Part shown: positions 18,781 to 25,222 of the stretch, one piece after another
Position numbering within the stretch: the first letter of the stretch is position 1
Layout of the letters: each line of letters starts with the position of its first letter
Assembly (NCBI GenBank): GCA_027297685.1
Contig: JAPUHN010000288.1
Coordinates: 1 to 39,048 of the forward strand
DNA: 39,048 nucleotides
Direction: 5' to 3'
Source of the DNA: Alphaproteobacteria bacterium
GTDB taxonomy: Bacteria > Pseudomonadota > Alphaproteobacteria > UBA6615
Notes under the pieces: generated by a model
What the model was told of the DNA's origin: nothing
Database searches by the model: none
The model's input: only the letters and a program-made list of their open reading frames with translations
Made by a program: the position numbers and the translations under genes

Positions 18781-19446
18781 TTACTCGATAGCCTGGCGCA
18801 ATGCAGCCGCTGTCGCCCAGGGCGCGGCCGCCAGGGCGAGCAGCAGAAAACCGCCCAACACCATGAGCAGGCCGCCGAACTCGCGGCCGGCGAGGGCGCC
18901 GTCGACGACCAGGGCGCCGAAAATCAAAACCGGAATGTACAGCGGTAGCACCAGCAGGGAAATCAAGACCCCGCTCCGTCGCGCGCCCAGGGTCAAGGCA
19001 GCGCCGATGGCGCCGATCAGGCTCAAGGTTGGCGTCCCGAGCAGCATCGAGACGATCAACGGCACGAAGGCGGAACCGGGCAAATTGTAAAATACGGCCA
19101 ACACCGGTGCGGCGACGAGCAGCAATACGCCGGTCGTCAGCCAGTGGGCGATTATCTTGGCCAGGGCGACCAATACCATCGGCAGCGGTGACAGGACAAA
19201 CTGTTCGAGGCTACCATCCTCGTAGTCGGCGCTGAACATTCGCTCGAGGCTCAGCATCGCCGCCAGCAGGGCGACCACCCAGATCACACCGCCGCCGATG
19301 CGCGGCAATATATCGGGGTCCGGGCCGACGCCGAACGGAAATAGGGTCGCGGCGAGAATGAAAAACACCACCGCCATCGCCGCATCGGTGCCGCCGCGAT
19401 ACGCCAGCTTGAGATCGCGGCGAATAAGGAGCACGAGCCCGTTCAT
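18781..19446 (-). CDS. ccmB: Heme exporter permease CcmB
   Basis: A 221-residue ABC permease with six hydrophobic segments. The N-terminal LIRRDLKLAYRGGTDAAMAVVFF and the cytoplasmic-loop motif YEDGSLEQFVLSPLP are characteristic of CcmB. It works with CcmA to release heme-loaded CcmE. The true start is ATG 19446, which overlaps the ccmA stop by 4 bp. A frame extending to 19623 lies inside ccmA and is not coding. Confidence 0.94.
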   Translation of the reverse strand: MNGLVLLIRRDLKLAYRGGTDAAMAVVFFILAATLFPFGVGPDPDILPRIGGGVIWVVALLAAMLSLERMFSADYEDGSLEQFVLSPLPMVLVALAKIIAHWLTTGVLLLVAAPVLAVFYNLPGSAFVPLIVSMLLGTPTLSLIGAIGAALTLGARRSGVLISLLVLPLYIPVLIFGALVVDGALAGREFGGLLMVLGGFLLLALAAAPWATAAALRQAIE

Positions 19447-20087
19447 GGCGCCGCGTCCGGTAGGCCGAGCCGGTCGGCGTGTCCACTGAGCGCGTCGTCG
19501 AGGCGGCCGCCATGACTGGCGATAACCGCCACACCCTCGTTGGCCAGATGGGCCAGGATGGAGTTGGCGAGCATGGCGACAGCTCCGGGGTCGAGCCCCG
19601 TCGCCGGTTCGTCGAGCAGCCACAAGGGCGGTCGCCAGGGTGAATTCTGGCCGACGGCCAGGCGCGCGAGAGTGAGCCGCCGCCGCTGACCGGCCGACAG
19701 ATAACGCGCCGGCAAGTCGGCGAGCTGCTCGATACCGAACTGGTAAAGTGCCGGTTCGATCTCTGGATCAAGACCGTAAAGCCTGGCCCAGAACTCGAGG
19801 TTCTCGCACACTGTAAGTCCCGGTTTAACCGGATCGGCGTGTCCGATATAGGCGATTCGCCGGCGATGGGCTTCGGCGTCGGCGGCGATATCTTCGCCCT
19901 CCCAGGCCAGCGTACCGGCGGCCGGCGGCAGCAATCCGGCCACTATTCGCAATAGGCTTGATTTGCCGCTGCCATTGGGCCCCGACAACAATAGCGCGCG
20001 GCCGGGATTGACGGCGAGCGCGACCCCGGCGAACACCAAGCGATCGCCGCGCACGCAGTCCAGCCCTTTCACCGTCAATCCTTGCAT
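19443..20087 (-). CDS. ccmA: Heme exporter ATP-binding protein CcmA
   Basis: A 214-residue ABC ATPase. It has Walker A GPNGSGKSS, ABC signature LSAGQRRR, Walker B LWLLDEPATGLD and the switch histidine in IASHGG. ATP hydrolysis drives release of holo-CcmE from CcmCD. The start is ATG 20087; a frame extending upstream to 20225 reads into the terminator of the DUF1127 transcript and is rejected. Five G residues sit only two bases before the ATG, and a GAG lies nine bases before it. It is the first gene of the ccm operon, whose promoter should lie in 20088-20200. Confidence 0.95.
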   Translation of the reverse strand: MQGLTVKGLDCVRGDRLVFAGVALAVNPGRALLLSGPNGSGKSSLLRIVAGLLPPAAGTLAWEGEDIAADAEAHRRRIAYIGHADPVKPGLTVCENLEFWARLYGLDPEIEPALYQFGIEQLADLPARYLSAGQRRRLTLARLAVGQNSPWRPPLWLLDEPATGLDPGAVAMLANSILAHLANEGVAVIASHGGRLDDALSGHADRLGLPDAAP

Positions 20088-20200
20088 TACCCCCGGCTCA
20101 ATTTTGTCTACACGCCGCCACTGCGGGCGCGAACCTAGAGCGTATTCCGGTAAGTTGGAACCATTCTGTTGGCGATCGGGGCGGCGGATTGTGGCAAACC

Positions 20201-20234
20201 AAAAAAGACCGCCGGCTGGGGGCAACCGGCGGTC
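20201..20234 (-). terminator. Rho-independent terminator with C-rich loop
   Basis: On the minus strand a perfect 9-bp stem (GACCGCCGG with CCGGCGGTC) encloses the ten-base loop TTGCCCCCAG and is followed at once by six U residues (20206-20201). It ends transcripts arriving from the DUF1127 gene before they reach ccmA. It also forms the 3' hairpin of the proposed small RNA. Confidence 0.85.
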
Positions 20235-20278
20235 TCAGGCCCTGGATCAACATCGGCCCTTGGGGGTGGGCTAGATGT
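20201..20278 (-). ncRNA. Putative twin-hairpin small RNA (CcsR/cuckoo-like) 3' of the DUF1127 gene
   Basis: Two stem-loops lie in tandem on the minus strand, 15 bases apart. The 5' hairpin (20278-20250) pairs ACATC with GATGT and GCCC with GGGC, leaving the loop ACCCCCAA. The 3' hairpin is the terminator, with the loop TTGCCCCCAG. Both loops present a run of five unpaired C residues. Known alphaproteobacterial CcsR/cuckoo RNAs are short, have two hairpins with C-rich anti-Shine-Dalgarno loops, and can be processed from the 3' end of a DUF1127 mRNA, as in Rhodobacter. Layout and position agree. The loop sequence CCCCC differs from the usual CCUCC type. The 5' end is unknown and may lie anywhere up to the DUF1127 stop at 20415. 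Confidence 0.55.
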
Positions 20279-20414
20279 CGGAGGCTGACCGGTCGTGCCC
20301 GATGGAGTAGACACGTCCGGCAGCTTCAATATGGGTCGGCGATTTGGCGACAGTTGGGTGTTTTTGCGGCGGAATTGTGATTTCAGTGGCAACTAATACG
20401 CGGTGTTTTGTTGC

Positions 20415-20711
20415 TTAAATCCAAAACCCCGGCGGGTGCGGGGCTCGCTCGGCGTCGGCGCGCGAAATTCCAATATCGCTCAATTGCCGATCGTCGAGCG
20501 CCCGCAGTTCGCGCTGCCAGCGACGCCGCAGACTATGGTTCCACAGGGCCGTTATCAACCGATCCAATGTGTTGGTCGATTGCGTAATATCCAACACTTC
20601 GGGATTCGTGCGGCCCTGGCCAACAGACCAAACCGCCTTCTTAAATGTGGTGACGGGGCGAAGCCGTGAAGGGGCAAAGCGGCCCACCGGTGAAGTTAAT
20701 GTCTGAGTCAT
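20415..20711 (-). CDS. Small DUF1127 (YjiS-like) protein
   Basis: A 98-residue protein. Its C-terminal 40 or so residues match the arginine-rich DUF1127 domain (RRRWQRELRALDDRQLSDI, then GISRADAERA). The N-terminal half has no recognisable domain. Such small proteins in alphaproteobacteria bind RNA or influence small-RNA turnover, and are tied to stress responses and phosphate metabolism. The start is ATG 20711 with AGGAG nine bases upstream; seven more in-frame codons upstream are possible. It diverges from a LysR gene and is followed by the twin-hairpin RNA, which suggests one regulatory module. Confidence 0.85.
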   Translation of the reverse strand: MTQTLTSPVGRFAPSRLRPVTTFKKAVWSVGQGRTNPEVLDITQSTNTLDRLITALWNHSLRRRWQRELRALDDRQLSDIGISRADAERAPHPPGFWI

Positions 20712-20759
20712 CGCTCGAACTCCTGCGTGCATTTGTATTCCTGGAATATGTGGTGCGAC

Positions 20760-20810
20760 TTGATATCAATCAAACGAATAATATTTATGACATTGATCAA
20801 AATATTTGAT
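20760..20810. promoter_or_regulatory. A+T-rich divergent promoter region with LysR-type boxes
   Basis: The 110 bp between the divergent DUF1127 and LysR starts are strikingly A+T-rich. They contain the palindromes TTGATATCAA (20760-20769) and TTGATCAA (20793-20800), and the inverted repeat ATCAAA-ATA-TTTGAT (20796-20810). The last contains a T-N11-A arrangement (T20797, A20809), the classic LysR-type binding core. It most likely serves autoregulation of the LysR gene and control of the DUF1127 transcript. Confidence 0.6.
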
Positions 20811-20821
20811 AGATAACAACG

Positions 20822-21694
20822 ATGGATACAACTCTTGAAACCCCGTTGCTGCGAACGTTGGTGGCGGTCTCCGAAACCGGCAGTTTCACCCGCGCCGCCG
20901 CTCAAGTGCACCGTACCCAGTCGGCTGTGAGCATGCAGATCAAGCGGCTCGAGCAGACGGTTGGCAAACCGTTGCTGGAGCGCGACCGCCGTCACGCCCG
21001 GCTGACCCGCGAAGGCGAGGCGCTGGTCGAGTATGCGCGGCGAATTCTCAATCTGCACGAGGAGGCATTGGCGGCGGTGTCAGAACCCGAGATCACCGGT
21101 CGTGTGCGGATCGGTACGCCGGACGACTACGCTGCCGGATTTCTTCCCCAGGTGTTGTCGGATTTTGCCGAGACCCATCCCAACGTCGAAGTCGATATGC
21201 GTTGCGAGACCAGCGCCAAGATTTTTCGTGCTTTCGAGCAGGGCGAAGTAGATGTGGCCTTGTTGACGTCCGGGCCCTGGCTGAAGGGCGGTGAGATTAT
21301 CCGCCGCGAACCGATCGTGTGGGCGACCTCGGTTCGGCACATGGTGCACGAACGCGATCCGTTGCCGCTCGCTGTGTTCGAGCCCGGTTGCCTGTTTCGT
21401 GAATCGGCGCTGGCGGCGTTCGACAAAAGCAGGCGTCCGTACCGAATAGCCTATTCCAGCGAATCCACCACCGGTCTTGTCACCGCCGCGTTGGCGGGTT
21501 TGGCGGTGACCGTGCTTGCCCGTAGCAGCGTGCCGGCGGGCTTGCGCGAACTGTCGCCCGACGAGGGCTTTCCGGTGCTGAGATCGGTCGATATCGCATT
21601 GCTGCGGCCGCCGCCCGGGCGTTCACGCGTGGCCGACCGGCTCGCCGATCACATCGCCCAGCGCGTGCCCATGGGAGCCGCCAAGGCCGCGTAA
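20822..21694 (+). CDS. LysR-family transcriptional regulator
   Basis: A 290-residue DNA-binding regulator. The N-terminal winged helix-turn-helix is textbook (LRTLVAVSETGSFTRAAAQV, then HRTQSAVSMQIKRLEQTVGK, about residues 10-50). It is followed by the linker helix and a periplasmic-binding-protein-like effector domain from about residue 92 (GRVRIGTPDDYAAGFLPQVL). The effector is unknown. It is divergent from the DUF1127 gene across an A+T-rich operator region. In Brucella and relatives the LysR regulator VtlR activates DUF1127 genes and a small RNA, so a similar role is plausible here. It ends 23 bp before a cytochrome b561 gene, which it may also control. Confidence 0.92.
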   Translation: MDTTLETPLLRTLVAVSETGSFTRAAAQVHRTQSAVSMQIKRLEQTVGKPLLERDRRHARLTREGEALVEYARRILNLHEEALAAVSEPEITGRVRIGTPDDYAAGFLPQVLSDFAETHPNVEVDMRCETSAKIFRAFEQGEVDVALLTSGPWLKGGEIIRREPIVWATSVRHMVHERDPLPLAVFEPGCLFRESALAAFDKSRRPYRIAYSSESTTGLVTAALAGLAVTVLARSSVPAGLRELSPDEGFPVLRSVDIALLRPPPGRSRVADRLADHIAQRVPMGAAKAA

Positions 21695-22460: not shown

Positions 22461-22543
22461 GGAATCTGACGCCGATGGGTCACCACCCGCCCGTTAGGTC
22501 ATCCAAAAATCTAGCCCTCTGGCAGAAGATAAGGAGACCATCG

Positions 22544-25222
22544 ATGTCTACGATCGGCCAAGACAGCCTGAACACCCGCCGCACCCTCGAAGTCGGCGGT
22601 GTCAAATACGACTATTTCAGCCTGAGCGAGGCGGCGGCGAAGTTTGGCGATATTTCGCGCCTTCCCTATTCGCTGAAAGTATTGCTGGAAAATCTGCTGC
22701 GCTACGAAGACGGCCGCACGGTAACGGTGGACGACGTACAGGCGATCGTCGATTGGCAGAAGGAACGCAAATCGAGCCGCGAGATCGCCTATCGCCCGTC
22801 CCGCGTGCTGCTTCAGGATTTTACCGGCGTTCCTGCGGTGGTCGATTTGGCGGCGATGCGCGAGGCGGTGCAAAACCTCAATAGCGACCCGCGGCTGATC
22901 AATCCGCTGTCGCCGGTCGATTTGGTGATCGATCACTCGGTCATGGTCGATAGCTTTGGCGGCAAGGATTCGTTCGAGAAAAACGTCGAGCGCGAATTCG
23001 AGCGCAACGGCGAACGCTACGAATTTCTGCGCTGGGGACAGGCGGCGTTCGACAATTTCCGCGTCGTGCCGCCGGGCACCGGCATCTGCCATCAGGTCAA
23101 TCTGGAATATCTGGCGCAGACCGTGTGGACCGACGAGATCGACGGCGCCACCTTCGCCTATCCCGACACCGTAATCGGCACCGATAGCCACACCACCATG
23201 ATCAATGCGTTGGGCGTGTTGGGATGGGGCGTTGGCGGCATCGAGGCCGAAGCGGCGATGCTCGGCCAACCGGTGTCGATGCTGGTGCCGGAAGTGATCG
23301 GTTTCAAAATGACCGGCGCCTTGAAAGAGGGCACGACCGCAACCGATCTGGTGCTGACCGTAACCCAGATGCTGCGCCAGAAAGGCGTGGTCAGCAAGTT
23401 CGTCGAATTCTTCGGCGACGGGCTCGACCATTTGTCCCTGGCCGACCGGGCGACCGTCTCCAATATGGCGCCCGAATATGGCGCCACCTGCGGCATTTTC
23501 CCGATCGACAAAGAGACACTGCGCTACCTGCGGTTCACCGGGCGGCCCGACGATCGGCTGGCTTTGGTCGAGGCCTACGCTAAGGCCCAAGGCATGTGGC
23601 GCGAGAAGGGCGCCCCCGAGCCGCTGTTCAGCGATACAATGGAACTCGACATCTCAACCGTCGAGCCGTCGCTCGCCGGGCCCAAGCGCCCGCAGGACCG
23701 CGTCGCCCTGTCGGACATGGTAGCCAGCGCACGGCAGGCATTGGTCGATATGGGTTCCGGTACCGCAACCCCGGTCGAGGGAGCAGACTACAGCATCGAC
23801 CCGGGTGACGTGGTGATCGCGGCGATTACAAGTTGCACCAACACCTCGAACCCCTCGGTGTTGATCGCCGCCGGCCTGGTGGCCCAAAAGGCGCGCGAAA
23901 AAGGCCTCAACAGAAAGCCCTGGGTCAAGACATCGCTGGCGCCAGGTAGCCAGGTAGTGACCGACTATCTGGTGGCGGCTGGGCTGCAACAACCCCTGGA
24001 CGAACTGGGTTTCGATTTGGTCGGCTATGGCTGCACCACGTGCATTGGCAATTCGGGCCCGTTGGACCCGGCGATCCATGACGCCGTCGTCGGCGGTGAC
24101 CTCGGGGTCGGCGCCGTGTTGTCGGGCAATCGAAATTTCGAGGGCCGTGTACATCCACTCACCAAGCTGAATTATCTGGCCTCACCGCCGCTGGTGGTGG
24201 CCTATGCGTTGGCTGGCTCGCTGAACGTCGATTTCTACAACGATCCATTGGCTCAGGACGGCGACGGCAACGATGTGTATCTCAAGGATATCTGGCCGTC
24301 GAATGCCGAGATTTCGGAAATTCTGGGCAACGTGCTAACGCCGGAAATGTTTCGCAAACGCTACGACAATGTCTTCGCCGGCGACCAGAAATGGCAGAAC
24401 ATCAAGACCGCAACCGGCCTGACCTATCAGTGGAACGATGGGTCGACCTATGTGCGCCACCCCAGCTTTTTCGAAGACATGGCGCCCGAGCCGGCCGAGA
24501 TTTCCGATGTCGTCGGCGCCCGGCCGCTCATGATACTGGCCGATAGTGTGACCACCGATCACATTTCGCCGGCCGGCTCGATCAAGGAGGATGGTCCGGC
24601 GGGCGATTATCTCAAGATGCACCAAGTGCGGCCGATCGACTTCAATTCGTTCGGATCGCGGCGCGGCAATCACGAAGTGATGATGCGCGGCACGTTCGCC
24701 AACATCCGCATCCGCAACGAAATGGCGCCGGGCACCGAGGGCGGGGTCACGGTTCACCAGCCATCGGGCGACCCGATGTCGGTTTATGACGCCGCGATGC
24801 GTTACCTGGCCGACGGAGTTCCGCTGGTGGTCATCGGCGGGAAGGAATATGGCACCGGGTCGAGCCGCGATTGGGCGGCCAAAGGCACACGTCTGCTTGG
24901 GGTCAAGGCGGTGATCGTCGAGAGCTTCGAGCGCATCCACCGTTCGAACCTGGTCGGGATGGGCGTATTGCCGCTCCAGTTCAAGGATGGCCTCGACCGC
25001 GCGCAACTTGGTTTCGACGGCACCGAGATGTTTGATCTCACCGGCATCGAGGGCGGCATCACGCCGCGCATGGATATCGCGTGCAAGATAACTTACGCCG
25101 ATGGCGCGGTGCGCGAGATCCCCTTATTGTGCCGCATCGACACCCTCGACGAGGTAGAATATTACCGCCATGGCGGCATCCTTCAGTATGTGTTGCGGAA
25201 CATGTTGAAAGAGGCCGCGTAG
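22544..25222 (+). CDS. acnA: Aconitate hydratase A
   Basis: An 892-residue [4Fe-4S] aconitase that interconverts citrate and isocitrate in the TCA cycle. The cluster ligands are all present: Cys431 in SCTNTSNPS, and Cys497 and Cys500 in [12 protein letters not shown], almost the same positions as in E. coli AcnA. The active-site loop [19 protein letters not shown] lies near the C terminus. ATG 22544 is preferred because of the AAGGAG site nine bases upstream; a frame from 22475 adds 23 unlikely residues. The apo-form of such proteins can bind RNA when iron is scarce (family knowledge). It is a single gene with its own leader. Confidence 0.96.

Follow-up and report, generated by a model that had tools for sequence, protein, structure and literature searches.

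The window analysed here, a stretch of 39,048 nucleotides from an alphaproteobacterial genome, carries C-rich hairpins downstream of a DUF1127 gene, and this raises the question of what kind of RNA is encoded there and whether it belongs to its DUF1127 neighbour. In a preliminary description the locus was presented as two tandem hairpins forming a divergent CcsR/cuckoo RNA. The features considered below, in the order of their coordinates, are as follows.

19446-20087, minus strand: ccmA, encoding the heme exporter ATPase (ABC_tran domain, followed by CcmB; assigned by synteny), the conserved downstream neighbour
20201-20236, minus strand: hairpin 3 (H3), an intrinsic terminator with the loop CCCC, a C-run at 20222-20218 and T6
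20248-20280, minus strand: hairpin 2 (H2), with the 8-nt loop ACCCCCAA at 20267-20260 and compensatory changes in 5 of 10 pairs
20280-20284, minus strand: CCUCC in the H1-H2 linker; GCCUCCGA is conserved, and GCCUCC is kept in 11 of 12 aligned family members
20284-20324, minus strand: hairpin 1 (H1), with a loop of approximately CUACUCCAUCGG (CCCCCAUCA in relatives) and compensatory changes in 5 of 10 pairs
20328-20333, minus strand: predicted -10 element CATATT (motif positions 51-56), whose last T, at position 56, is 96% conserved
20340-20383, minus strand: predicted operator/promoter block of four 11-bp direct repeats AAATCACAATTCCGCCGCAAAAACACCCAACTGTCGCCAAATCG, with a conserved C at 20379, 20368, 20357 and 20346
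20415-20732, minus strand: DUF1127 (YjiS-like) open reading frame (Pfam PF06568, E = 3.2e-9), whose stop codon lies about 30 nt 5′ of the promoter block
20822-21694, plus strand: gene of a LysR-type regulator, divergent from the DUF1127 gene, in the block between the putative sRNA and acnA
22475-25222, plus strand: acnA (aconitase), which directly adjoins the putative sRNA in genomes lacking the LysR/DUF1127 block

Both minus-strand hairpins of the preliminary description (20280-20248 and 20236-20201) are real and, as stated there, they lie downstream of a DUF1127 gene, but they are separated by about 11 nt and not 15, and their number was underestimated, since a third hairpin (20324-20284), placed directly 5′ of H2 and part of the same element, had been overlooked. 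Five unpaired C residues had been assigned to each loop; thermodynamic folding revealed that the stem of H3 runs on through UUG/CAG and leaves only CCCC unpaired, while the T6 end of the terminator was correctly recognized. Of the loops of the window (CUACUCCAUCGG, ACCCCCAA and CCCC), none contains CCUCC or CCUCCUCCC, but CCUCC is present in the linker between H1 and H2. The 90-nt stretch folds with -47.2 kcal/mol (z = -6.0; none of 200 shuffled sequences was equally stable), and a longer stretch of 220 nt has a z-score of -4.8 relative to shuffled sequences.

Syntenic relatives within the same family were recovered by DNA and protein searches. The three hairpins are almost unchanged in two of these genomes (G007 and G013), and two further genera retain about 70% identity together with the complete structure; the H3 terminator was found in all 12 aligned relatives. 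Because MAFFT places H1 of the window group out of register with that of the other genera, covariation was recounted on 12 relatives with the window group left out. In this set 94.7% of the cells were paired, double-change cells numbered 36, whereas shuffles gave 13.6 +/- 3.1 and slid controls no more than 7, and compensatory changes were contributed by H1, H2 and H3 each. The comparison of related genomes suggested in the preliminary description thus revealed compensatory changes in all three stems, and with the 5′ hairpins conserved in this way, the objection which it had raised against itself, namely that only a terminator is present, fails. Its broader proposal, that the tandem C-rich hairpins are those of a small regulatory RNA, is very probably right.

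A covariance model (R2) built from the 12 relatives, the E-values of which are rough, matched 20 of the 24 genomes in the window's family, each with one convincing copy (the element is single-copy in the window's genome), and in other families it found copies that are weaker, though syntenic. In a class-wide set of 99 ccmA loci, unbiased and drawn from a sample of the genomes of the class, 23 of the 24 R2 matches at E <= 2 were located 5′ of ccmA and on its strand. Similar C-rich RNAs 5′ of ccmA were found in Rhodospirillaceae and Rhodospirillales MAGs; Azospirillum melinis has one with a weak match to the model, and Telmatospirillum sp. J64-1 has one recognizable by eye, with a promoter block scoring below the cut-off. 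No such RNA was found in the Acetobacteraceae, rhizobial or Rhodobacteraceae ccmA loci inspected. All the evidence for the putative RNA is comparative.

Among these RNAs the C-tracts in the loops are preserved, while the stems drift. Of 35 representative RNAs, 32 contain runs of five or more C, where composition would predict 17, and 28 contain CCUCC, where 15.5 would be predicted; in several class relatives CCUCCCC is presented by H1, in loop 1. CCCC loops were found in 0 of 25 other terminators and in about half of the terminators 5′ of ccmA (80 named ccmA loci); this control has small numbers and a few duplicate rows, and it argues that C-rich terminator loops are not a local background.

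The second conserved component is the predicted promoter block, positioned at a nearly fixed distance 5′ of the RNA, with the consensus AAATCACAATTTCGCCRCATTCCGRCCC..TGTCGCCACATT, about 7 nt and TATATT. Its self-similarity is highest at offsets of 11 and 22 bp. The C residues at motif positions 5, 16, 27 and 38 are 96-100% conserved, and GCC at positions 14-16 and 36-38, together with C at 27, follows the same period of 11. With a matrix from which the window's family had been held out, the window site scored 46.1 bits and the next best site in the 39 kb (both strands) 8.0 bits. The motif passed the score threshold in about 50-54 of 150 ccmA upstream regions, mostly strongly and mostly 220-360 nt before ccmA; as the matrix was refined on these same regions, this frequency is descriptive and does not provide counts independent of the search. 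With up to 3 mismatches allowed, the best 21-bp core has a single occurrence in the genome of 3.8 Mb. Further copies of the block were sought in the genome, and 20 weaker 15-mer matches were rejected, none of them scoring as a full motif.

The -35 region of this predicted promoter is unlike that of sigma70. Such arrays of 11-bp direct repeats are characteristic of response regulators of the OmpR/PhoB family, and the conserved C positions are compatible with several response regulators. The block contains direct GCC repeats of the ChvI-like type (N-GCC-N8-GCC), and the reported ChvI consensus of Sinorhizobium meliloti is GCC-N8-GCC (PMC9731502). This is a resemblance to a ChvI site and not proof of ChvI binding.

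The genomic address of the element is more constant than its association with DUF1127. Read along the RNA, the order in the window is acnA < b561 < LysR / DUF1127 > RNA > ccmA. In G012, G017, G021, G022, G002, G011 and family f104 it is acnA / RNA > ccmA, with no DUF1127 detected, and DUF1127, present in the window, is missing from the locus also in relatives L063-L066 and L070-L073 and in other families. Judging from these gene orders, the constant neighbour of the RNA is ccmA, not DUF1127, and the association with DUF1127 appears to stem from a lineage-specific insertion. In two genomes (G006 and G015) the DUF1127 frame reads through the promoter block of the RNA (...TFPPHxxxxLAKLAPH; L032 and L028, respectively), which fits a later neighbour and not a partner. 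The promoter-block DNA consequently encodes protein in certain genera but not in others. No obvious terminator was found between DUF1127 and the RNA in the window, so a longer co-transcript is possible.

Two further elements were observed upstream: an exact FNR-like palindrome, TTGATTGATATCAA, at 20760-20773, between the divergent LysR and DUF1127 genes, and beside it a conserved ATTATTCGTTTGATT stretch, which looks like the LysR regulator's own site. Control by FNR was considered and rejected; the exact TTGAT-N4-ATCAA (20773-20760) is lost in G007, carries a mismatch in G013 and is missing from more distant genomes.

Given its fixed place, the element might be a cis-acting leader or attenuator of the ccm operon, whose hairpins and terminator govern read-through into ccmA. 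The RNA does lie on the ccmA strand, in distant families usually 50-240 nt upstream, it ends in a terminator, and in the window the ccmA start region CCGGGGGTAATG (20085-20096) is complementary to ACCCCC of the H2 loop. However, the uninterrupted same-strand arrangement fails in four genomes (G004, G010, G021 and G023; loci L059, L060, L064 and L062), where a SnoaL-like gene on the opposite strand is inserted between the RNA and ccmA and the gap amounts to about 600 nt. Moreover, in one relative (L131:986-1504) the whole unit, comprising promoter block, C-rich RNA and terminator, is tandemly duplicated 5′ of ccmA with a spacing of about 300 nt. Both arrangements point to an autonomous gene and not to a ccmA leader. 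No competing antiterminator was seen, and RNA-ccmA pairing was no better than with shuffled sequences in most genomes, for which reason the idea that ccmA is a conserved target of pairing was also rejected. A GGGGG ahead of the ccmA start occurs also in G007 and G013, and not in other genera. We therefore regard the leader as unlikely.

The reading of the preliminary description, in which RNase E releases a divergent CcsR/cuckoo RNA from a DUF1127 mRNA at its 3′ end, is improbable. In its favour are the DUF1127 gene lying upstream on the same strand, the tandem C-rich hairpins (three conserved ones, of which the last is a terminator, as in cuckoo-type RNAs) and a weak alignment of the ar14 model (RF02344) to all three hairpins. 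CcsR RNAs are reported to form an array whose transcription, shared with the DUF1127 gene ccaF1, starts at an RpoH promoter and whose maturation depends on RNase E (PMC10253847). Against this, many genomes keep the RNA and its promoter beside ccmA without DUF1127 at the locus, and the element has a conserved promoter block of its own, so that the proposed origin from the DUF1127 mRNA is not supported. One copy was found in the genome and not an array such as CcsR1-4, and the window lacks the CCUCCUCCC motif reported for every loop of cuckoo RNAs (PMC3927594).

The comparison with Rfam 15 gave no match at gathering in the window, every score being far below it. The ar14 model reached 23.5 bits (gathering 58.8) and sX13 (RF02232) 24.3 bits (gathering 50), while alpha-r8/MmgR (suhB, RF00519; gathering 41 bits) had no match there, with weak matches of 22-29 bits in three relatives (L093, L097 and L101). 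CcsR1 (RF02791) matched neither the locus nor, above the cut-off, anything in the 24 genomes; it scored 22.3 bits in the relative L115. Since sub-threshold CcsR1 matches occur also in Escherichia coli and other controls, the sub-threshold ar14 and CcsR1 matches in the genomes are noise. Among all ar14 matches the highest, at 35.5 bits against a gathering score of 58.8, was obtained 5′ of ccmA in L119:1271-1388 (relative G292), and it is possible that this RNA represents a link between the two families. None of the defining CcsR features named above was established, and with copy number, model score and loop motif all failing, the element was not filed as a cuckoo RNA. It would seem to work like a cuckoo RNA, while membership in that family is not supported.

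By computation, the three-hairpin structure and the promoter block are conserved at a fixed place 5′ of ccmA, independently of DUF1127 and of read-through into ccmA, and the element has what is expected of an autonomous gene (its own promoter, a conserved structure and a terminator); from this we infer its transcription, start site, regulator, anti-Shine-Dalgarno action and targets. The locus is thus probably best explained as an autonomous minus-strand sRNA gene of about 125 nt, with its own promoter and under control of the OmpR/PhoB-family type (possibly ChvI), encoding a trans-acting RNA of the anti-Shine-Dalgarno type. Transcription would proceed from the promoter at 20383-20328 (four 11-bp repeats and the -10 box), controlled by an OmpR/PhoB-family response regulator, possibly ChvI; the RNA is predicted to start at about 20325-20320 and to end at about 20200, at the C-loop terminator. 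Its three hairpins would expose C-rich tracts (C4-C7, CCUCC and CCUCCCC across the class), whose most likely pairing partners in trans are G-rich Shine-Dalgarno regions, so that translation would be blocked. The trans-acting mode is suggested by the enrichment of C-runs and CCUCC, by the terminator control and by the way in which C-rich loops are known to act in cuckoo/CcsR, MmgR and sX13 RNAs.

The same conserved loop C-tracts on drifting stems might instead serve as a sponge or decoy that titrates a G-rich sRNA or an RNA-binding protein and not mRNAs; as the enriched CCUCC and CCUCCCC are anti-Shine-Dalgarno-like, this is very improbable. Hardly credible is a mere DUF1127 terminator with a chance upstream hairpin, for which a good intrinsic terminator does exist, but which is contradicted by the conservation data: compensatory changes preserve all three hairpins, the promoter block is conserved class-wide, and the element occurs without DUF1127.

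The predicted sRNA shares features with several described RNAs. With the cuckoo/ar14 RNAs, including SmelA075-like ones, it has in common three hairpins, the last of which is a terminator, and C-rich, anti-Shine-Dalgarno-like loops that are kept while the stems vary; it differs in that its class has C4-C7 or CCUCCCC loops in place of CCUCCUCCC and in being a single copy that lies 5′ of ccmA and has its own promoter built of 11-bp repeats. CcsR1-4 of Rhodobacter sphaeroides are likewise C-rich hairpin RNAs, placed 3′ of a DUF1127 gene as in the window, whereas the RNA described here can do without DUF1127 at its locus, its promoter is separate and the CcsR1 model finds no match. MmgR/alpha-r8 is an alphaproteobacterial sRNA which also has a C-rich anti-Shine-Dalgarno sequence (a 10-mer) and a terminator (PMC12559287), but it has two hairpins and another locus, and its model scores are below gathering. 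ChvR of Caulobacter crescentus is Hfq-independent, pairs through stem-loops near the start codon and is controlled by ChvI (PMC6237742). The resemblance of the GCC-N8-GCC repeats to the reported ChvI site (PMC9731502) would be common ground with ChvR, which was compared by its description and which is confined to C. crescentus, beside recF. The sX13 RNA of Xanthomonas also has three hairpins with C-rich loops; it comes from a different class and is not orthologous. GsrN was rejected as a counterpart, having another locus and another promoter. No paper describing an sRNA 5′ of ccmA was found in the searchable literature, outside which the key cuckoo paper lies, and the RNA appears to be described neither in Rfam nor in searchable papers; the published thermodynamic matchers for cuckoo RNAs may already have caught some of these RNAs.

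For the locus itself, an adjoining DUF1127 gene is insufficient for a CcsR/cuckoo call, and its function-bearing partners would be the promoter repeats and the C-rich hairpins, not DUF1127. On a wider and more tentative view, for which the balance of probability is somewhat unfavourable, the element may represent a large family of sRNAs, as yet undescribed, in Rhodospirillales-type Alphaproteobacteria, in which a ChvI-like two-component regulator acts through one near-unique operator per genome on a hub of C-tract anti-Shine-Dalgarno pairing, connecting envelope or respiratory stress to many mRNAs, and in which DUF1127 moved in secondarily, mimicking CcsR. The RNA at this locus would add a conserved regulator in a branch of the Alphaproteobacteria for which few sRNAs have been described, and one that brings with it a promoter signature and a fixed address 5′ of ccmA, both checkable in existing transcriptomes.
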